A stretch of DNA of 64,000 nt from Gilvimarinus algae. Its GTDB lineage: Bacteria > Pseudomonadota > Gammaproteobacteria > Pseudomonadales > Cellvibrionaceae. The DNA lies in contig NZ_JAULRT010000060.1 in assembly GCF_030518215.1 (NCBI RefSeq), positions 62,001 to 126,000 on the forward strand, given 5' to 3'. Under the pieces are notes generated by a model that saw only the letters and a list, made by a program, of their open reading frames with translations, was not told the origin of the DNA and did not search any database. The position numbers were made by a program, and so were the translations under genes. Numbering within the stretch: the first letter of the stretch is position 1; each line of letters starts with the position of its first letter. Of this stretch, positions 4,931 to 12,507 are shown piece by piece.

Positions 4931-5831
4931 GACCATTAAGCGGGCCCTGTTGATCGTCAACCCCAAGGCACGTAATGGTGCCCAGGCCAAGCTGGACGAG
5001 GGTCTGGCGCTGCTGCAACACAGTGGCATAGAGGTGGAGTACTATGAGTCCACCAGCGCCGAGCAGACCCGCGAGGCCATTACACAGCGCCACGAGCATT
5101 TGGATCTGGTGATTATCGGCGGTGGCGATGGCACCATCAGTTCGGCGGCGGGGCTGTTGCACCGCTATCATCTGGCGCTCGCGGTCCTGCCCCTGGGTAC
5201 AGCCAATGATCTCGCCCGCTCGCTGTGTTTGCCCGAGGACTTAGAAGAGGTGTTTGAGATCATTGCCAAAGGCTACTGCCAGAGCATCGATCTGGGCAAG
5301 GTCAATGGCAAGTACTTTTTCAATGTGGCCAACATGGGGCTCGGGGTTAAAGTGACCGAGGAGCTCACCCCCGAGGTGAAAAAACAGTGGGGTGTGTTCA
5401 GTTACCTCAAGGCATTCCTGGCAGCACTGGTGCGAATCCGCCAGTTTCGAGTCCGTCTGCAGGTGGATGGTGTGTCCTACAAGCTGCGCTCGATTCAATT
5501 GGCGGTGGGTAATGGGCGCTACTATGGGGGTGGCAATGTGGTGGATGAGCGCAATCGTATTAACGATGGCCAGCTGTCTTTGTACAGCATCAAACCGCAA
5601 ACGGTATGGGAATTTTTAACTCTGGCACCCCTGCTGCGCGATGGTAAGCAACGCCAGGCGAAGCGCGTGTTCCAGCAGCGCGGCAAGCGTATTGATATAG
5701 TTACCCGCCCGGCGGGCATGGCGATTCACGCCGATGGTGAACCCATTGATCGCACGCCGGCGAGCTTTATACTGATACCCAAGGCACTTAGAGTGATTGT
5801 GCCGCAAGAGCAATGGGAGGAGAGCCCGTGA
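4920..5831 (+). CDS. Diacylglycerol-kinase-type lipid kinase (YegS/BmrU-like)
   Basis: 303 residues. The ATG at 4920 lies inside the end of the PAP2 gene; the longer frame upstream has no family similarity. The catalytic DAGK domain shows NPKARNG (residues 14-20), the nucleotide-binding GGGDGT (67-72) and LPLGTANDLARSL, followed by the beta-rich C-terminal domain with GNGRYYGGGNVV and a late HADGEP. Members phosphorylate diacylglycerol or related lipids at the inner leaflet. Coupled with the PAP2 enzyme before it and the helical protein after it, it probably takes part in lipid turnover; the exact lipid is not readable from sequence. Confidence 0.88.
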   Translation: MSNETIKRALLIVNPKARNGAQAKLDEGLALLQHSGIEVEYYESTSAEQTREAITQRHEHLDLVIIGGGDGTISSAAGLLHRYHLALAVLPLGTANDLARSLCLPEDLEEVFEIIAKGYCQSIDLGKVNGKYFFNVANMGLGVKVTEELTPEVKKQWGVFSYLKAFLAALVRIRQFRVRLQVDGVSYKLRSIQLAVGNGRYYGGGNVVDERNRINDGQLSLYSIKPQTVWEFLTLAPLLRDGKQRQAKRVFQQRGKRIDIVTRPAGMAIHADGEPIDRTPASFILIPKALRVIVPQEQWEESP

Positions 5832-6265
5832 GTGTCCTGAGAAACGATGTACAGGTGGCGCTGAATGATGTGCATGTGGCGTTTATGGAGAGCGCGGACC
5901 ACTATCGCGATGCCGCCGATTTTCTCAATAAAGCGTCTGTCAGCCGCGGGCTAATCGCCATCGCCGAGCAGCGTGACCAGCTGGTGGGTGATATTGAAAA
6001 AGCCATCCGCGACAGCGGCGATCTGCCTTCAGTCCCGGATACCGACCGTGAGACGGGCGAGCAGCTGATTCAGCATTTGACCGCGATGTTTTCGGCAGAC
6101 GAAACCCAGGGCGTGCTGCAACAGCGACGCGAGGACGAGCAGTGGCTGCAAGAGTTGCTCGACTCCCCAGAGCTGGCTTGCCTGGCAAAAGATTACCAGG
6201 CTATTGTCAGCCGGTGCAGAGACAATATCGAGTGGGCGCTGGAAAAGCTCGATAGCCTGAGCTGA
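5828..6265 (+). CDS. Small all-helical protein, DUF2383/PA2169-like four-helix bundle
   Basis: 145 residues from GTG 5828, chosen because GGGAGGAG ends five bases before it and it overlaps the kinase stop (GTGA); an ATG 15 bases upstream would bury the ribosome site. No signal peptide or membrane segment. The sequence is predicted to be four amphipathic helices: VQVALNDVHVAFMESADHYRD, an SRGLIAIAEQRDQLVGDIEKAI helix, then two acidic helices, like the ferritin-like DUF2383/PA2169 proteins. It lacks an obvious pair of ExxH metal motifs. Function unknown; third member of the lipid-enzyme operon. Confidence 0.6.
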   Translation: MSVLRNDVQVALNDVHVAFMESADHYRDAADFLNKASVSRGLIAIAEQRDQLVGDIEKAIRDSGDLPSVPDTDRETGEQLIQHLTAMFSADETQGVLQQRREDEQWLQELLDSPELACLAKDYQAIVSRCRDNIEWALEKLDSLS

Positions 6266-6334
6266 GGGCAGCTCAGCCTTTGCGCCTTAGCATCACCCTC
6301 GGCCTTGCCGAATCCGCCTGGGCCGATGAAATGT

Positions 6335-7246
6335 TCACGAGTGGTCGCTCGCGCGCAGCACCCAGTGGAGCACGCCTTGCTGCTCAAGAAAGGCACGGGC
6401 ATTGGCTCCCTGCAGCATCGCCAGGGTGGACAGAGAGCCTGCCTCCACGCAGGTTTGCGCCACCACACTGACCGACAGGGGGGCCTCTTCCACCGGTCTG
6501 CCCGATCGTGGGTCGAGTATGTGCCCGTAGCGCTTTCCCCCTTGTTTGAAATAGCGTTTGGTGGTGCCGCTGGTGGCGATGGCGCCCTCGACAAGGGTGA
6601 CGCCGTTGTCATTGTTGGGCGGCTCGCAGACGGACTCAATGGCGATGCGCCAAGGCTTGGTGACACTGGCGCGGCAGCGACAGTCCCCGCCGAAGTTGAC
6701 AAGGTAATCGGCGCTGCCGTGCTGTTCAATGATCTGCGCGGCCCGGTCCACGGCATACTCTTTGGCGATGCCGCCAAAATCCAGTTGCATGCCGGCGGGC
6801 AGGCGCAGCCAGGGCTTCTGCCAGTGCACACGCGCCAGTCCCACCAGCTCAAGCGCGGCGTCTATGGCAGCTGCCGCGGGCGCCTGCCGTTGAGCCGCAT
6901 CAAATACCCACAGGTGTCTGAGGCTACCCGAGCTGATATCGAACTGGCCGTCACTCAGGTGATAGAGCTGCAGTGCGTATTCGAATAGTCGAGCATACTC
7001 GTCGTCCAGTGCAGTGGCCTGTCCCCCGCTGTGATTGATTCTGTAAAGGGGGTTGTCCTGGCGATAGCGGCTGAAGTGTTGCTCAATGCGCTGCGCCTCT
7101 GAGGCGGCCCGCTCAATAAGCTCGCAGGCATCGCTTTGTTTGGGCAAGCGGACAAACAGCTCGCAGGGGCTTGCCATGCAAAAAAAACGTCCACGCCACC
7201 CATCCGACTGTGGGCTAAGGGATATCCGGGCCGACTCAGAACGCAT
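6335..7246 (-). CDS. apbE: FAD:protein FMN transferase (ApbE family)
   Basis: 303 residues from the ATG at 7246, which overlaps the end of the upstream DUF3570 gene. ApbE attaches FMN from FAD to a Ser/Thr of target proteins using Mg2+. Conserved parts are present: M-S-PCELFVRL at the front, FDISSGSLRHLW, DFGGIAKEYAVDRA, NFGGDCRC, ATSGTTKRYFKQGG and GHILDPRSGRPV. Gram-negative ApbE proteins are usually exported, yet no signal peptide or lipobox precedes the domain here, even from the furthest start at 7276. It is last in the dsbD-tlpA-DUF4266-DUF3570-apbE operon. No known ApbE substrate (NqrC, RnfG, FMN-binding domain) is in the window. Confidence 0.9.
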   Translation of the reverse strand: MRSESARISLSPQSDGWRGRFFCMASPCELFVRLPKQSDACELIERAASEAQRIEQHFSRYRQDNPLYRINHSGGQATALDDEYARLFEYALQLYHLSDGQFDISSGSLRHLWVFDAAQRQAPAAAAIDAALELVGLARVHWQKPWLRLPAGMQLDFGGIAKEYAVDRAAQIIEQHGSADYLVNFGGDCRCRASVTKPWRIAIESVCEPPNNDNGVTLVEGAIATSGTTKRYFKQGGKRYGHILDPRSGRPVEEAPLSVSVVAQTCVEAGSLSTLAMLQGANARAFLEQQGVLHWVLRASDHS

Positions 7247-8525
7247 AGCTGATGGACAACAAAGTGGCGTCGACATCGGGTGTCAAATCCACAGTGTTGA
7301 GATAGCCGGGCAGGGCGTCGGGGTTTTGCTCGGGACTCATCTGGTAATACGCCAGGCGCAGGGAGAGGTACTGATTCTTTCCGAGCTGGTAGTCGGCATT
7401 GATCCCGTAAGTGATATTGGTCGTGGGTGCGAGCCGGTAATCGGCGCTAAAAAATGGGGTCTGATTATCGCGCAAAGCCTGGGAGAAAAAATCCGCGGCT
7501 TCTTGCTGATACCAGCGTAACTGAGGTTCCACTCGCCAGTTCGACCCCAACTCAAACTGCACACCCGCTGACAATGTATGAGAGCGCACGCCCCAGTTGT
7601 CGGTATAGAAGCGAAAGCCCGTATCCAGTACCCGGCCGCCGGCAAAATGCCAGAGCAGCCTCGCGAAGGCGCTGTGTCGCTGGCGCTGTTCGGGGCGAAC
7701 TTCATAGCGGTTGTAGAGAGAATCGCCGGCGGCGTCAATGACAGACACCATTTTTTGTGAGTCGTTGTGATAGCCGCGCGAATGACTGTATTGGTAACTC
7801 ACCTGAGCCAGGGCGTTACGGCTGATAATCTGATTTACCGCGGCATTGATTGAGGTCGTGTTGCGCGCTTTGTGCGTTTCGCTGTGCAGCTGCTGCCACT
7901 GTTGCTCGAAGGCCTCTTCACTGGCGAAATCGGCTCGACTGATCACGCGCGCACCGGCGAGAGCGGCGCCGCCGTAGGGCCGAATGCTGGCGTCCTCGTA
8001 GTTGAGTGAAAGGGTCCACTGGGTGTTCTTGTTGTTTGAGTAGTAGCTGTTGCCAAGTCCAACGCTGCGGGAAATGTAGGTGGCCTCGGTGGAGTAGCGG
8101 CCACTGAGGCTGACGCTGTAGTAGCGATTCAGATTTTGGCTGAAACCCAACGACACTTCCTGACGCGGGTGGCGATCAATGGTGTAGCTCGGGCGCTCGT
8201 TCGCGGCGGTCTGCTCGTCTACGACGCCAGACGGACTGGTAAAGGTCTGAGGCTCGGCGGTGGGTACAGCGCCGTTTTCCGACGCCCCGGACACCACGTC
8301 GTAGCCAAGCTTGACGTTAATCGTGTTCTCGCTGCTTGCGCCCTCCACCTGAATCAGCCCTTGATTCACCGAGATACGGCCATTCTCCGAGTAGGACAAT
8401 ACCGCCGTCTGCGTGCTCCACTGCCGGCTGTTGGCGGACTGGCTATCGTCGCTCGCCAGCAGTGCGGAACTGGCCAGCGCAATGACGGTCGCGGCCTTGG
8501 TGCTGCTGTGCCTGGTCAATTGCAT
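7236..8525 (-). CDS. DUF3570 outer-membrane beta-barrel protein
   Basis: 429 residues from ATG 8525, overlapping the end of the DUF4266 gene. An N-terminal hydrophobic stretch (about residues 10-27) is the signal peptide. The rest is alternating beta-strand sequence rich in Tyr, Ser and Asn with many barrel-type strands (QWTLSLNYEDASIRPYGG, ALAQVSYQYSHSRGY, QYLSLRLAYYQMSP), ending with a terminal aromatic SISYAF typical of BAM-inserted porins. The DUF3570 family is repeatedly found with DUF4266 and ApbE genes; its molecular role is not established. Likely located in the outer membrane as partner of the DUF4266 lipoprotein. Confidence 0.85.
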   Translation of the reverse strand: MQLTRHSSTKAATVIALASSALLASDDSQSANSRQWSTQTAVLSYSENGRISVNQGLIQVEGASSENTINVKLGYDVVSGASENGAVPTAEPQTFTSPSGVVDEQTAANERPSYTIDRHPRQEVSLGFSQNLNRYYSVSLSGRYSTEATYISRSVGLGNSYYSNNKNTQWTLSLNYEDASIRPYGGAALAGARVISRADFASEEAFEQQWQQLHSETHKARNTTSINAAVNQIISRNALAQVSYQYSHSRGYHNDSQKMVSVIDAAGDSLYNRYEVRPEQRQRHSAFARLLWHFAGGRVLDTGFRFYTDNWGVRSHTLSAGVQFELGSNWRVEPQLRWYQQEAADFFSQALRDNQTPFFSADYRLAPTTNITYGINADYQLGKNQYLSLRLAYYQMSPEQNPDALPGYLNTVDLTPDVDATLLSISYAF

Positions 8526-8743
8526 CCGCACCCCCCGCCTTCAAGATCGCTGCCGCCAGTGGAAGACTCCCGCGCGTTGTAGATATGTGCATCAAAGGCA
8601 CTTTGCAGCCGCGCGTGCTCCAGCGCCATGGAGTCCTTCGCCAAAATGCCTTTTTGCCAGGGTTTAACACCCAGAGAGGAGCAGCCGCCGAGCGTTGGCA
8701 GAACCAACAGCAGTGCGACACACACACAAAATCGCTGCGCCAT
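8516..8743 (-). CDS. DUF4266 small lipoprotein with CGC C-terminus
   Basis: 75 residues. Signal peptide with lipobox LGGC (Cys21 lipidated). The mature part is only 55 residues: a helical segment (KPWQKGILAKDSMALEHARL) and a flexible tail with ESSTGG (59-64) and the C-terminal GGGCGCN (69-75), the signature end of DUF4266. Start ATG lies four bases after the thioredoxin stop. Two adjacent cysteines at the very C-terminus, a thioredoxin plus DsbD upstream and an FMN transferase downstream point to a redox or cofactor-carrying lipoprotein; whether the Ser/Thr-Gly tail is an ApbE target is inference. Confidence 0.85.
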   Translation of the reverse strand: MAQRFCVCVALLLVLPTLGGCSSLGVKPWQKGILAKDSMALEHARLQSAFDAHIYNARESSTGGSDLEGGGCGCN

Positions 8744-8746
8744 GGT

Positions 8747-9214
8747 TCAAGGGGCCTCGTTGTGCAGCAGCGCTTCTACGCTCGCCTCATAGGCCGGAAT
8801 TTTGTCGCTGAAAAAACCGGTGTGCTGCTCGATAATCACGCCGTCGGCGTTAACGAGATAGGAGCTTGGCATACCGTCGACCTGAAATTGTTCCGCCAGC
8901 GCTCCGGCCGAATCGTAGACGATGTCAAACTGAATATTTTTGCCCGCGAGAAACTTCTGGGCATCAGCTCTGTCTTCGTCGAGATTAACGGCGATAATGG
9001 TCAGTTCTGGGTAGGTGGTTTTCAGTTGGTTCATCCACGGAAAAGATTCCTGGCAGGGGCCGCACCAGGAGGCCCAAAAATCAATCAGCACTGGGCCTGA
9101 GGTTTGTTCAAGTCCAGGCACTTTGGGCGCTGGTTTGCCGACCATACCCGTTTCTGACCAGCTGGGCAGACAAATGAGCAACGAAGCGGCCAATAACCAC
9201 GGGGACATTTTCAT
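8747..9214 (-). CDS. Periplasmic TlpA/ResA-like thioredoxin
   Basis: 155 residues with a cleavable signal peptide (about 1-20) and a thioredoxin-like fold. Active site WCGPC at residues 50-54, cis-proline loop GMPSSYLV near residue 114, matching the TlpA/ResA/DsbE group that keeps particular periplasmic cysteines reduced. GGAG lies a few bases before the ATG at 9214. It follows dsbD by 18 bases, so DsbD is the natural electron donor, and it precedes the CGC-ended DUF4266 lipoprotein by three bases, making that protein a likely client. Confidence 0.9.
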   Translation of the reverse strand: MKMSPWLLAASLLICLPSWSETGMVGKPAPKVPGLEQTSGPVLIDFWASWCGPCQESFPWMNQLKTTYPELTIIAVNLDEDRADAQKFLAGKNIQFDIVYDSAGALAEQFQVDGMPSSYLVNADGVIIEQHTGFFSDKIPAYEASVEALLHNEAP

Positions 9215-9232
9215 AAGGTGACTCCAGTGAGT

Positions 9233-11062
9233 TCAGGGGTGAACGTTGGCGGCGAGTTCAGCTGATGTGCTTGCTTCGCCGGGAAAGCTTGCCTCGAGCA
9301 CGCCAGTCAAATGGGAGGCCAGCGCCGGTGCTTTGATTTCACTGCGGATGTGATACTGCGACAGGGCTACTCCTTGAGCATCGAAGAACAGCAAGCTTGG
9401 CGGACCAAACAGGTTGTAGCGTTCCAGTAGCTCACTGCTGTCGGTGACATCGGCCTGAATGAGATAAAACTTTTCAAGCTTTTCGGCGACCGAGGGTTTG
9501 GGGAAGACGCTGTGCTCCATCACTTTGCACGAGGCGCACCAGTCGGCGTAAAAATCTAAAACCACGGGCAAGTTCTGTTCGCGTGCCAGCGCCAGATGCC
9601 TGTCCAACTGTTCGGCAGAGACTACGGTTTTAAACGCCGTCGCGCTCGGTTGGGTGAGTTCAGTGCTGTGGCTTGCGACCAATGCCGTGAGCGGTTGCAA
9701 AGGGTTTTGGCTGCCGGCTGCTGCACCGATCCACAACAGTGAGCCGTAGAGAACCGAGAGAAAACCGAGCGTTTTGCGAAATTGTGCCCAGCCGCTTTTG
9801 CTGCTGAAATCCAGCCCACCCAGATAGACTCCGCAGCCGAGCACCAGGGCCCCGAGCAGGGCGAGGGTCACTGTCGGCGGCACGATCCGATCGAGAAACC
9901 AGATGGCTACACCCAGGAGCATGACCCCGAAAAACGCTTTAACGCCGTTCATCCAGGCGCCGGCCTGAGGAATCAAATGGGTGCCGCCCGTGCCAATGAT
10001 CAGCAGCGGTGTGCCCATCCCCATGGCCAGGGAAAAGAGCGCGGTGCCGCCGAGCAGGGCACCGCCATCGGTGGTGCTGATGTACACCAAAGCGCCCGCC
10101 AGCGGCGCGGAAACACAGGGCGAGACCACCAGCGCCGAGAGAATACCCATAAGCATAGTACCCGCCAGAGTGCCGCCGCGCTGTTGACCGGTGATCCGGT
10201 TTAGCCGGCTCTGTAGTCCCTGGGGCAATTGCAGTTCATAGAGGCCGAACATCGACAACGACAAGAGCACAAACAGGAGCGCAAAACTGCTGATAACCCA
10301 AGGGTTTTGCAAATAGGCCATGATGTTGGTACCGGCGACACCCAGAATGATCCCGAGAAGGCTGTAGGTGATGGCCATGCCCAGCACATAGCTCAGCGAC
10401 AGGGAAAAGCTCTCTGTTTTTTTCAGATCGCGTTTTTGCCCGACGATAATGCTGGACAAAATAGGAATCATCGGCAGCACGCAGGGCGTAAAAGTCAGAG
10501 CCAGTCCACCAATAAAAAACACACCGATGATGGTCAGATAGTGGCCTTCACTGAGCAGCGAGGTAATGCGGTGCTCTTCTGTTGCCGGCGCGCTTTGGGT
10601 GTCGGGTTCTGGCGGCGCTGCCGTTGTGGTGGGTGTTAGTAAAAAGCTGACTTTCTTTGGCGGATAGCAGATGCCTTTATCGGCGCATCCCTGATATTTA
10701 ACGAGCAGGGTAATCGGAGTGAGAGCGCTGTTGTACAGCGCCATGGGAATGGACACCTGATTGCGATACACCTCCTGAGTGCCAAAGTACTTGTCGTCTT
10801 TGATTTCACCGGCTGGCCACTGCGGATCACCTAGGGTTGCATGGGGCGTCTTTGCTAAAGCAAAGCTCATTTTGCTCTGGTAGAGGTAGTGCCCTTCGGC
10901 AATGCGCCAGTGGATAGTGATCTGGTGTTGGTCATCCAGCTCGGCAGATGCTTGAAACGCCTCCGCCGAGCTGAGTGAATCAGCGGTGACTGGCAGACAA
11001 AACAAGCCGAGCAATAAGCTCAACACGAGAAAAACGCGGCGGTATCCGATTGCGGTCTGCAT
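9233..11062 (-). CDS. dsbD: Thiol:disulfide interchange protein DsbD
   Basis: 609 residues with the full three-domain DsbD layout: signal peptide, periplasmic alpha domain with the CADKGIC cysteine pair, an eight-helix membrane domain with the two essential cysteines in FTPCVLPMIP and VSPCVSAPLAG, and a C-terminal thioredoxin domain with WCASC (Cys509 and Cys512). It passes electrons from cytoplasmic thioredoxin across the inner membrane to periplasmic reductases. First gene of the redox operon; it may serve cytochrome c maturation as well as the TlpA-like protein next to it. Confidence 0.96.
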   Translation of the reverse strand: MQTAIGYRRVFLVLSLLLGLFCLPVTADSLSSAEAFQASAELDDQHQITIHWRIAEGHYLYQSKMSFALAKTPHATLGDPQWPAGEIKDDKYFGTQEVYRNQVSIPMALYNSALTPITLLVKYQGCADKGICYPPKKVSFLLTPTTTAAPPEPDTQSAPATEEHRITSLLSEGHYLTIIGVFFIGGLALTFTPCVLPMIPILSSIIVGQKRDLKKTESFSLSLSYVLGMAITYSLLGIILGVAGTNIMAYLQNPWVISSFALLFVLLSLSMFGLYELQLPQGLQSRLNRITGQQRGGTLAGTMLMGILSALVVSPCVSAPLAGALVYISTTDGGALLGGTALFSLAMGMGTPLLIIGTGGTHLIPQAGAWMNGVKAFFGVMLLGVAIWFLDRIVPPTVTLALLGALVLGCGVYLGGLDFSSKSGWAQFRKTLGFLSVLYGSLLWIGAAAGSQNPLQPLTALVASHSTELTQPSATAFKTVVSAEQLDRHLALAREQNLPVVLDFYADWCASCKVMEHSVFPKPSVAEKLEKFYLIQADVTDSSELLERYNLFGPPSLLFFDAQGVALSQYHIRSEIKAPALASHLTGVLEASFPGEASTSAELAANVHP

Positions 11063-11472
11063 GGTAGTAGCCCGGTTATTTTTTTATGGTGATTGATTTT
11101 TTTATTCTTGTTCGCCGGCGCGAAGGCACGCGGTCTTGCTCACTGTTGCTGGCGAATTTGAGTCAGCGCGTAGAGGAGTCAGGCGGCAAACAGGGGCGAG
11201 ATTGTAATTTGCAAAAAAATGTTAAAAAAGTGGTAAAAAATAACAAGATGGCTGTCGGCAGGCGCTAAGTGCTAAGGGCGGTTGGCGGTGATTTATGCTG
11301 CTGTCGCCTTCTGGCAGGGGCTTTCGAGAATAGCAAATGATTAATGCGCCATTTTTTTATTTTTTATCGAAATTAAAACTATTCATTTAAATGAAGAAAA
11401 AAGCTAAATCCGGGGGCGAATTTAGGCACCTAGGGCGGTGCCAAAGGTCGCAGATGGCCACTAGTGAAGGCG
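11063..11472. promoter_or_regulatory. AT-rich intergenic region upstream of dsbD with a 14-bp palindrome
   Basis: No convincing gene in these 410 bases; a 60-codon plus-strand frame has no coding character. The region contains an A/T-rich block (about 11330-11410) and the perfect palindrome TTCATTTAAATGAA at 11382-11395, a plausible dimeric regulator site roughly 320 bases before the dsbD start. Promoter position not resolved. Confidence 0.4.
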
Positions 11473-12507
11473 CTAGCGGCGAAACGCGCTGACCGTTTCG
11501 ATGCGGCCGTTCTCGCGATGCTGCAGCGGCATCATCTTGATATTACGCAGATGCGTCTTCCCGCCAGAGAGCTCAGTGTCGTGGTAAAACAGGTACCACT
11601 GGCCGTCAAATTCGGTGATGGAGTGGTGGTTGGTCCATCCCAGTACCGGCTCCAGAATGACGCCCTGGTAAGTAAAAGGCCCGTAGGGCGAGCTGCCCGT
11701 GGCGTAGACAATCTTGTGAGTGTCGCCGGTCGAGTAGGAGAAGTAGTAGGTACCCTGGTACTTGTGTACCCAGGCGGCTTCGAAAAAACGCTTTTCATTG
11801 TCTCCCGCGACGATGGGCGAACCGTCAGGGTAGAGCAGCTCTACCGCTTTGGGTGGGTGAGCCAGGCTTTTCATGTCAGCGGACAGGCGAGCCACTTGTG
11901 GCATCAGGGCCGGCTGGTCGTCCGCGGGGTAGCGGTCCTCGGCGCTGTAGCGGCCGTCTTGCCAGCGCTGCAGCTGACCGCCCCAGATGCCGCCGAAATA
12001 GAGGTAGTAGTCGCCCTCATCTTCGAACACCGCCGGGTCTATGCTGAAGCTGCCGTCGATGGGGTCGGGTTCAGGGGTAAAGGGGCCCGTGGGCGAGTCG
12101 CTGTGGGCAACGCCGAGACGGAAGATGCCCTGACTGTCTTTGGCTGGAAAGTAGAGGTAGTAATCATCGCCTTTTTTCGCGGCGTCCGGCGCCCACATTT
12201 GCCGCTCGGCCCAGGGTACCTCGTCGATATCCAGAGCAACGCCGTGGTCGGTCACCGCTCCGCCCGCTTGTGCCAGCGAAAACACATGGTAGTCGCGCAT
12301 GACAAAGCGCCCACCTTCATCGGGATAGGGGGCGTCGGTGGGGATATCGTGTGACGGGTAGATATACAGGCGGCCATTCCAGGCGTGAGCCGAGGGGTCC
12401 GCGGTGTAGCGGTGATCCACCAGCGGCGGATCTTTAAACTCGGGCGTGGCGCTGCAACCGCTCAGAAGCAGCAGGGCGACAGGCAATAGGGCGGTGCGCA
12501 GAGTCAT
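11473..12507 (-). CDS. GH43-family arabinan/xylan-type glycosidase, lipoprotein
   Basis: 344 residues from ATG 12507; upstream codons belong to the mannonate dehydratase end. Lipoprotein signal with lipobox LSGC (Cys18). The five-bladed propeller of GH43 is recognisable: catalytic-base region HRYTADPSAHAW, the DPAVFEDEGDYYLYF aspartate, and an acid glutamate in FFEAAWVHKYQGTYYFSYS, then GWTNHHSITEFDGQWYLFYH. It should release arabinose or xylose residues from (arabino)xylan oligosaccharides, anchored to a membrane facing the periplasm or exterior. It lies four bases downstream of manD, so the two are co-transcribed and regulated through the operator at 13756. Confidence 0.88.
   Translation of the reverse strand: MTLRTALLPVALLLLSGCSATPEFKDPPLVDHRYTADPSAHAWNGRLYIYPSHDIPTDAPYPDEGGRFVMRDYHVFSLAQAGGAVTDHGVALDIDEVPWAERQMWAPDAAKKGDDYYLYFPAKDSQGIFRLGVAHSDSPTGPFTPEPDPIDGSFSIDPAVFEDEGDYYLYFGGIWGGQLQRWQDGRYSAEDRYPADDQPALMPQVARLSADMKSLAHPPKAVELLYPDGSPIVAGDNEKRFFEAAWVHKYQGTYYFSYSTGDTHKIVYATGSSPYGPFTYQGVILEPVLGWTNHHSITEFDGQWYLFYHDTELSGGKTHLRNIKMMPLQHRENGRIETVSAFRR

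Follow-up and report, generated by a model that had tools for sequence, protein, structure and literature searches.

Why should Gilvimarinus algae keep genes for a DsbD electron supplier, a thioredoxin, a small lipoprotein, a predicted outer-membrane barrel and an FMN transferase side by side on one strand, and where would electrons passed along such a set be delivered? The question is raised by positions 6335-11062 of the window, the 64,000-nucleotide stretch of DNA analysed here (contig NZ_JAULRT010000060.1, positions 62,001 to 126,000), in which a sequence-only reading had seen a five-gene redox cassette. That much is borne out, all five products matching their families above the Pfam cut-off:

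9233..11062, minus strand: DsbD in its full three-domain form, 609 aa (DsbD_TM 5.2e-91, DsbD_N 2.1e-32)
8747..9214, minus strand: TlpA/ResA-like thioredoxin, 155 aa (Redoxin 1.6e-15), its N-terminus signal-like on visual inspection
9053..9064, minus strand: CGPC active-site motif of the thioredoxin, C51-C54, read off the translation
8516..8743, minus strand: DUF4266 lipoprotein, 75 aa (Pfam 3.6e-20), lipobox Cys21 followed by Ser
8519..8539, minus strand: C-terminal GGGCGCN tail of DUF4266, containing the DUF3570 start codon
7236..8531, minus strand: DUF3570, 431 aa (Pfam 8.6e-112), predicted outer-membrane beta-barrel without cysteine
8280..8300, minus strand: DVVSGAS (residues 78-84), predicted to be flavinylated by ApbE with Ser84 as acceptor, close to where strand 3 reaches the outer end
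6335..7276, minus strand: ApbE, FAD:protein FMN transferase, 313 aa (PF02424 2e-70), with no recognisable signal peptide or lipobox

The genes are packed as had been claimed, with gaps of 3-18 bases or overlaps. The DsbD and TlpA-like genes are separated by 18 bases and the TlpA-like and DUF4266 genes by 3; DUF4266 and DUF3570 overlap by 16 bases (or 10, with the in-frame ATG at 8525 as start), and DUF3570 and ApbE by 41. The GGGCGCN ending read in the lipoprotein is likewise present in its translation, and among relatives a possible DUF3570 start lies ahead of the DUF4266 end in 103 of 132 loci. It is this spacing which suggests that the five genes are co-transcribed; a pattern scan of the minus strand of 6100-11700 found no sigma-70-like site, and nine terminator-like matches compared with a mean of 6.4 (sd 2.6) in shuffled sequence. 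NCBIfam also names the first gene DsbD (PRK00293), above cut-off, and it represents one of three places in this genome where DsbD_N and DsbD_TM occur together. Elsewhere in the G. algae genome there is a sister cassette that includes a haem-motif protein.

The gene set itself is not new. Main-text passages of Meheust et al. 2021 (PMC8238504) describe DsbD-type flavinylation clusters composed of the same five families, including DUF4266 with a C-terminal CXC, and report that ApbE flavinylates the DUF3570 protein of Chlorobium; 285 clusters with DsbD are recorded there, along with 316 holding the other four genes with no DsbD beside them. The window has the hallmarks of such a cluster, namely the five genes, a predicted [ST]GA[ST] site and a C-terminal CXC, albeit with one flavinylation site in DUF3570 where the same passages give two for the Chlorobium protein. 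The proposal of a device without a described function needs correcting in that the cassette is already in print, in a section on 'DsbD systems' (PMC8238504). A term search of the main text of that paper finds neither 'beta-barrel' nor 'lipoprotein', and 'outer membrane' once, in connection with siderophore transporters. In passages of a 2024 paper from the same group (PMC11334425) the outer membrane is given as one place of flavinylated domains, with DUF3570 unnamed. The missing ApbE export signal of this clade, a tight DUF4266–DUF3570 bond and the co-loss described below were not found in the main-text passages of PMC8238504, nor by searches of an open-licence library. What is added here is the prediction of the barrel and of the flavin position, the DUF4266–DUF3570 bond, the co-loss, and an ApbE without an export signal.

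The proposal that DUF3570 forms an outer-membrane beta-barrel is supported by its AlphaFold model (pLDDT 88.2, pTM 0.84), in which 16 long strands and four short loop strands end in a C-terminal Phe; the even strand number, short periplasmic turns and aromatic C-terminus are those of a predicted barrel of this class. The best PDB matches found with Foldseek are FadL and porins. The top matches superpose only loosely (TM about 0.4, mostly with an rmsd of 10-12), and barrels of 14 to 22 strands are among the matches, so that the number of strands is taken from the model. On the flavin side the loops measure 3-37 residues, and on the opposite side the turns measure 2-5. The flavin site is thus placed by the model at the long-loop end, which is presumably extracellular, and this topology makes the proposed exposure of a flavin at the surface by the barrel likely. 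Ser84 probably faces the barrel lumen, judging by hydrophobic alternation. The idea that conservation is strongly concentrated at the outer end was considered and dropped, as 45 of the top 60 residues by conservation lie in the outer half or outer loops where about 40 are expected, a weak excess. A signal-like N-terminus is present in 100 of 125 relatives by a crude rule. Cysteine is absent from 49/59, 52/55 and 53/56 barrels in three sets; since the window barrel also has none, all cysteines of this outer-membrane pair belong to DUF4266.

A search for FMN on the lipoprotein had been proposed, but the predicted acceptor is instead the barrel. The window DUF3570 contains one [ST]GA[ST] site, DVVSGAS, so that a flavin is expected there (the motif definition being taken from passages of PMC12052999). 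A slightly relaxed site, [DEQ]xx[STG]G[AGS][ST], occurs in 55 of 59 DUF3570s of the window clade with ApbE nearby, compared with 46 of 1180 shuffles; three of the misses (L038, L049 and L061) are counted as such because the sequences were trimmed to 620 residues, all three carrying DTWSGAT, and the fourth (L071) has DVLIGAS. Of 56 sister-clade loci, 53 have both a flavin-type site and a CGC tail on DUF4266, and the remaining three, L145, L154 and L175, have neither. L145 is an in-frame fusion of DUF4266 to DUF3570 and sits on a long branch, separately from L154/L175, in a quick tree assessed by SH-aLRT only. As read from these sequences, two lineages lack the site and the tail alike. In L154 the stretch covers 379 upstream bases, and the absence of DUF4266 rests on a genome-wide search. 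Alignment and tree omit six DUF3570 fragments of less than 340 aa (L092, L095, L097, L101, L115 and L177); L097 and a match in genome G427 (L258) have the appearance of decayed copies, and genome G473 has a single DUF3570, which runs off a contig edge. The substitution of SSAS for SGAS in the sister clade may or may not mean that the flavin is absent. SSAS relatives lie directly beside ApbE (L103, L111, L117, L174 and the Hymenobacter locus L263), and a model protein with Ala in place of the motif Gly is still flavinylated to about 50%, as reported in passages of PMC12052999.

DUF4266 is tied closely to this barrel. DUF4266 was found in 90 of 369 genomes sampled across the class, all 90 of which also have DUF3570; the latter occurs in at least 95 of the 369 (Fisher 1e-80, kinship of the genomes being ignored) and in at least 20 of 299 genomes spread over the phylum, both DUF3570 lists being a loose first look in which only some candidates were scored. 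The expectation that DUF4266 would seldom be found without its neighbours is accordingly favoured for DUF3570. At 120 of 124 places DUF4266 lies no more than 3.5 kb from a listed DUF3570 match, at two further places it is 1.6-1.9 kb from an unlisted DUF3570, and in one genome the two are 30 kb apart. Of the 80 named loci, 79 show the link and the other lies at a contig end; these loci are the 80 kept out of at least 555 confirmed relatives in a collection scan made with an alignment of eight closer DUF3570s. This grouping exceeds chance. Two loci, L047 and L082, keep the flavin site with no adjoining DUF4266, and in both genomes DUF4266 is encoded elsewhere. The predicted structure of DUF4266 comprises a helix (43-61) and a low-confidence tail (64-75), and CGC followed by one or two residues forms the C-terminus in 213 of 215 matches. 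Met39 and His53 are invariant in 58 close sequences, the His being missing in several more distant members. Lipoproteins without Asp at position +2 are directed to the outer membrane under the Lol rule. The window protein has Cys21-Ser22, and Asp occupies +2 in one of the 194 relatives (out of 213) with a lipobox-like pattern; by this rule DUF4266 would be an outer-membrane lipoprotein.

A TlpA-like gene is present in 120 of 142 stretches and 68 of the 80 named loci; a suspected TlpA–DUF4266 fusion in L168, suggested by overlapping positions, proved false, as no frame holds both. A DsbD gene, counted in relatives by its membrane domain only because thioredoxin domains swamp the full profile, occurs in 35 of the 222 fetched loci, many of them clipped by contig ends and four counted twice (L161/L178, L039/L214, L046/L256 and L052/L255). 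It lies upstream on the same strand only in the window, L066 and L242. DsbD is thus a member of the cassette in the window, but, being found in a minority of loci, is rejected as a core part. Overall, the earlier picture of a redox cassette with thiol supply, predicted outer-membrane barrel and flavin is supported, with its novelty, its flavin acceptor and the standing of DsbD corrected.

In the window ApbE, the open frame starts 35 residues ahead of the domain core and reaches a maximum hydropathy of 0.81 there. Hydropathy of at least 2.0 before the domain is attained by 4 of 132 ApbEs of the clade and by 14 of 640 internal stretches of the same proteins, compared with 121 of 134 DUF4266 and 115 of 125 TlpA N-termini. 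The test is crude, since the signals of DUF3570 itself reach 2.0 in 29 of 80; at 1.6 the counts become 69/80 for DUF3570, 14/132 for ApbE and 79/640 for internal stretches. By a second crude rule, 7 of the 132 appear signal-bearing. Export features, a lipobox and a signal peptide, are present in the two other ApbEs encoded in this genome. The cassette ApbE of this clade therefore appears to lack an export signal, from which it follows that flavinylation of DUF3570 probably precedes export here; ApbEs of the sister clade and of Bacteroidota carry signals, so that loading before export would not be general to DUF3570. ApbE is present within the fetched stretch in 59 of 77 window-side tree rows and 70 of 80 named loci, some stretches being clipped. 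The canonical ADALST-like motif of ApbE contains an Asp, in place of which the window protein and 98% of the clade have Gly. The missing export signal is a point absent from the sequence-only reading.

We consider it about evenly balanced (probability roughly 0.5) that the cassette forms a haem-free conduit carrying electrons from thiols to a single covalent flavin through the outer membrane. From the known families, DsbD would hand electrons across the inner membrane to the TlpA-like thioredoxin, which would reduce the C-G-C pair ending the DUF4266 lipoprotein, itself presumably anchored in the outer membrane. The flexible 12-residue tail, probably entering the barrel from the periplasmic side, could then pass electrons to the FMN on Ser84 of DUF3570. 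More speculatively, the FMN, at the long-loop and presumably extracellular end, might in turn reduce an acceptor located on the surface or within the lumen, possibly a metal such as ferric iron. ApbE would load FMN onto the barrel precursor in the cytoplasm, in which FAD is at hand, before Sec export and assembly. The complete version, in which a barrel loaded in the cytoplasm and exported via Sec serves as the surface end of the haem-free conduit and is fed by a DUF4266 CGC tail swinging through it, is offered more tentatively. Electrons are carried through the outer membrane by MtrCAB, in which multihaem cytochromes are combined with a larger porin. The proposed system resembles it as a barrel with redox cofactors that would move electrons through this membrane, and differs in its smaller barrel, one flavin and two-cysteine tail; no haem-binding cytochrome family was matched by any of the five cassette proteins in Pfam, and the window barrel has no Cys. 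Electron exchange between a flavin and a cysteine pair on a flexible C-terminal tail is also a feature of thioredoxin reductase and mercuric reductase; there both belong to one soluble enzyme, whereas here the tail would belong to a lipoprotein and the covalent flavin to a separate barrel.

The same observations admit other explanations. The near-universal CGC ending and the invariant Met39 and His53 of close relatives would also suit a metal ligand (Cu, Fe or Zn), in which case the cassette would serve metal uptake or handling and the flavin would shift the redox state of the metal. In keeping with this, FTR1-like and cupredoxin genes each occur in 11 of 222 loci, largely the same ones; three loci have a His/Met-rich C-terminal half fused to DUF3570; and passages of PMC8238504 report VIT1 iron transporters in 25 clusters. 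Such transporter neighbours are however a minority, the His is not kept in several more distant DUF4266s, and the frequent TlpA-like gene points to thiol chemistry; we regard a metal role as unlikely. Passages of PMC8238504 also describe P19-FTR1 iron systems in which thioredoxin-like or flavin proteins take part. The minority of related cassettes near FTR1-like and cupredoxin genes resemble these, but no P19, FTR1 or cupredoxin is found among the seven Pfam-scanned proteins of the window (the five genes and two neighbours). It is considerably less probable that TlpA and DUF4266 merely assist barrel assembly, as a thiol-dependent chaperone or plug off the electron path. The overlapping genes and the natural DUF4266–DUF3570 fusion do suggest a stoichiometric complex, but most barrels contain no cysteine, and where the sister clade lacks the flavin site the tail is absent too.

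An inward flow is held to be similarly improbable. In this reading the flavin at the surface would oxidise or sense something in the surroundings, electrons or a signal would be relayed to thiols in the periplasm, and nearby two-component systems would read it. Members of a histidine-kinase cluster occur in 80 of 222 loci, one member having been checked with Pfam, and as the cluster has 142 members in these loci it probably includes response regulators too. Such genes are common and stand at varied distances and on varied strands, and DsbD-family proteins supply electrons outward. A somewhat stronger, still doubtful, competitor concerns the order of events: ApbE may enter the periplasm by an unrecognised route and flavinylate there, as in other systems. 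All six sister-clade ApbEs with their N-terminus in the stretch reach a hydropathy of at least 2.6 (four of the six by a cruder rule; the other six of the 12 are clipped at the stretch edge), and a Bacteroidota relative has a signal. Set against this, 128 of 132 ApbEs of the window clade have no strongly hydrophobic N-terminal stretch, and cytosolic ApbEs are known. Passages of PMC12052999 describe one in Klebsiella pneumoniae which likewise has no signal peptide, although its substrate is a soluble fumarate reductase rather than an exported barrel.

Should the thiol-to-flavin conduit exist as proposed, bacteria would possess a small haem-free device, made up of a thioredoxin pathway and a single flavin, for moving electrons across the outer membrane. 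The signal-less ApbE would then account for flavinylation of an exported protein with no need to export FAD, and the barrel would be an instance in which a protein passes the inner membrane while carrying a bulky cofactor.

The window carries a cassette of five genes on the minus strand, in the order DsbD, TlpA-like thioredoxin, DUF4266, DUF3570 and ApbE.

9233-11062, minus strand, DsbD
8747-9214, minus strand, TlpA-like thioredoxin
8516-8743, minus strand, DUF4266, a lipoprotein with C-terminal GGGCGCN
7236-8531, minus strand, DUF3570, a predicted outer-membrane barrel
6335-7276, minus strand, ApbE, an FAD:protein FMN transferase

All five proteins lie above the Pfam cut-off for their own family, and these matches and the gene order bear out the cassette spotted in the sequence-only reading. 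Gaps of 18 bases (DsbD/TlpA) and 3 bases (TlpA/DUF4266) are followed by overlaps of 16 (DUF4266/DUF3570) and 41 bases (DUF3570/ApbE). DUF3570 starts within the codons that encode the terminal CGCN of DUF4266, and a possible DUF3570 start precedes the DUF4266 end at 103 of the 132 loci with both genes on one strand. A 150-aa ORF convergent with ApbE (5813-6265) has a sub-threshold Pfam match to DUF2383.

The cassette is of an already described kind, since available passages of Meheust et al. 2021 (PMC8238504) report 285 DsbD gene clusters, typically with ApbE, DUF3570, a thioredoxin-like protein and DUF4266, and 316 further clusters with the same four genes and no adjoining DsbD. The function of the cassette type is left open in those passages, with iron hinted at via VIT1 in 25 clusters. 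The same passages describe flavinylation of a Chlorobium DUF3570 by its own ApbE at two [ST]GA[ST] sites and remark upon the CXC of DUF4266. A 2024 paper from the same group (PMC11334425) places flavinylated domains at the outer membrane among other sites, DUF3570 being unnamed in the passages available. A search of the open-licence literature found no paper besides PMC8238504 naming DUF4266, DUF3570 or PF12094.

Residues 78-84 of the window DUF3570 read DVVSGAS, which fits the ApbE flavinylation motif D-x-x-[ST]-G-A-[ST] given in passages of PMC12052999. Slightly relaxed, the motif matches 55 of the 59 DUF3570s in the window's clade that have ApbE nearby; among the other four, three carry it in the full-length sequence and one has DVLIGAS. 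A matching string arose in 46 of 1180 shuffles of the same proteins. On this motif, the barrel is the expected flavin carrier.

The AlphaFold model of DUF3570 (56 aligned sequences; pLDDT 88.2, pTM 0.84) has 16 long and four short strands and a terminal Phe. Foldseek against the PDB ranks FadL, porins and OmpG highest, with E-values down to 6e-11 but loose superpositions (TM about 0.4). Outer-membrane barrels have both chain ends in the periplasm, and the topology was assigned with both ends placed on that side. The modelled outer loops have 3, 29, 3, 37, 28, 4, 26 and 19 residues and the inner turns 2-5. Asp78 to Ser84 occupy 0.56 to 0.94 of strand 3, measured toward the outer side of the model, and by hydrophobic alternation Ser84, Gly82 and Asp78 fall on predicted lumen-facing positions. 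Conservation in the outer third of the barrel is 3.26 bits at lumen positions versus 2.13 at lipid positions, while the inner third shows hardly any difference (2.51 versus 2.46 bits). The 60 most conserved residues are shifted weakly outward, 45 against about 40 expected.

DUF4266 and DUF3570 are strictly paired and belong together, in agreement with their earlier grouping in one cassette. Among 369 genomes spread over the class, DUF4266 occurs in 90 and DUF3570 in at least 95, all 90 falling within the DUF3570-bearing set. Among the matches listed, 120 of 124 DUF4266 places have a DUF3570 match within 3.5 kb. For two of the other four, a DUF3570 frame outside the match list lies 1.6 kb off in one case and 1.9 kb in the other, and a third is a second copy within locus L049; in genome G304 the two genes lie 30 kb apart on one contig. 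Five genomes have DUF3570 without DUF4266 among the matches listed: G427, with an apparently decayed copy, G473, where DUF3570 is at a contig edge, and G312, G350 and G480, in which flavin-type site and CGC tail are missing together.

C-G-C plus one or two residues ends 213 of 215 DUF4266 matches in the fetched loci (four loci counted twice), the exceptions being frames fused to DUF3570 at L145 and at L097, the latter apparently decayed. By the lipobox pattern the median mature length is 55. The AlphaFold model of DUF4266, weak overall (mean pLDDT 67.6), shows a helix over residues 43-61 and, with pLDDT below 50, a tail over 64-75. At L038, L049 and L061, DUF3570 carries at its C-terminus a fused second half, about 350 residues long and His/Met-rich, for which Pfam found no family at L038 and L061; the adjoining DUF4266 ends in CGCY.

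A quick tree, built from 136 DUF3570 sequences, sets two sides apart, one clade of 56 (support 100) comprising sister cassettes in which the Gly of the flavin-type site is mostly replaced by Ser. Of these 56, 53 have both the site and the CGC tail and three have neither. L145 (6506-7825) is a natural in-frame fusion of the DUF4266 N-terminus with DUF3570, lacking both tail and site; no DUF4266 was found in the genomes of L154 and L175 (379 bases upstream of L154 covered). L154 and L175 form one lineage; L145 is a separate one with a long branch. On the window's side, the flavin site is retained at L047 and L082, whose DUF4266 is not adjoining but elsewhere in the genome, and at L085 the tail is seen at a contig edge.

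The window ApbE has no recognisable export signal: its frame opens 35 residues ahead of the domain core, and no hydrophobic stretch is present (maximum hydropathy 0.81). On the window's side, 4 of 132 ApbEs reach a hydropathy of at least 2.0, and two of the four (L128, L139) resemble true signals. The same level is reached by 14 of 640 stretches from inside these ApbEs, by 121 of 134 DUF4266 proteins and by 115 of 125 TlpA proteins. For weak signals the measure discriminates less well: of 80 DUF3570s, 29 reach 2.0 and 69 reach 1.6, a level attained by 14 of 132 ApbEs and by 79 of 640 internal stretches. By a second crude rule, signals appear to be present in 7 of 132 ApbE, 122 of 134 DUF4266, 128 of 130 TlpA and 100 of 125 DUF3570 proteins. 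The sister-clade ApbEs with the N-terminus inside the stretch (6 of 12) all reach 2.6, four being signal-bearing by the second rule.

In the available passages of PMC12052999, secreted ApbEs are typical, a cytosolic Klebsiella ApbE serves a soluble fumarate reductase, and no case is described of a cytosolic ApbE acting on an exported barrel. The Klebsiella enzyme is cytosolic with a soluble substrate, whereas the window ApbE has no recognisable signal and an exported barrel as its expected substrate. A lipobox and a signal peptide are present in the other two ApbEs of the window's own genome. In the canonical ADALST-like ApbE motif, Asp is a metal ligand; Gly takes its place in 98% of the 132 ApbEs of the window's side, so their metal site may differ.

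The window DUF3570 has no cysteine, nor has the roughly mature protein in 49 of 59, 52 of 55 and 53 of 56 relatives (three sets). The DUF4266 cysteines are therefore the only ones of the two outer-membrane proteins, which makes DUF4266 the natural partner of the thioredoxin. DsbD_N and DsbD_TM occur together at three places in the genome and DsbD_TM alone at a fourth, so the DsbD of the cassette could serve this cassette alone.

The window's own genome holds a second cassette at locus L009 (7710-13706, G000:C30).

L009, lipoprotein with a hydrazine-synthase-alpha-like domain and two CxxCH motifs
L009, further genes: two small barrel-like genes, a TlpA-like protein, DUF4266, and DUF3570 with DMVSSAS

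None of the genome's ApbE places lies inside the 17-kb L009 stretch. Relatives of the L009 lipoprotein occur in 50 of 142 loci, and the adjoining DUF3570s form one clade. On the 1.85-Mb plasmid of Vibrio sp. THAF191d (L264), TlpA, DUF4266, DUF3570, ApbE (no signal) and a partly read DsbD stand in a row, at a site with no feature in the incomplete plasmid table. On a Hymenobacter (Bacteroidota) plasmid (L263) the order is thioredoxin, ApbE (signal present), DUF4266 and DUF3570, the last having DIYSSAS and being annotated as two pieces. Neighbours in 222 loci include FTR1-like proteins (11), cupredoxins (11), DsbD (35), a kinase/regulator cluster (80), and MsrP- and MsrQ-like genes (10 each, named by eye from sequences). 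The MsrP-/MsrQ-like genes are on the strand opposite the DUF3570 cassette at L039, L058, L063, L214, L217, L221, L228, L230 and L237, L039 and L214 being one locus. As pointers to the acceptor, such neighbours are hints only.

Beside the observed gene content, flavin site, barrel prediction, tail conservation and lack of a recognisable ApbE export signal, we infer a path that probably runs as follows. DsbD would pass electrons to the TlpA-like thioredoxin and this to the CGC tail of DUF4266, which, lying inside the barrel, would reduce the FMN on DUF3570; the FMN would discharge to an acceptor at or beyond the outer membrane, and its attachment to DUF3570 would precede export. Together, barrel topology, strict DUF4266 pairing and a signal-less ApbE give a sharper, testable model than that in the available passages of PMC8238504.
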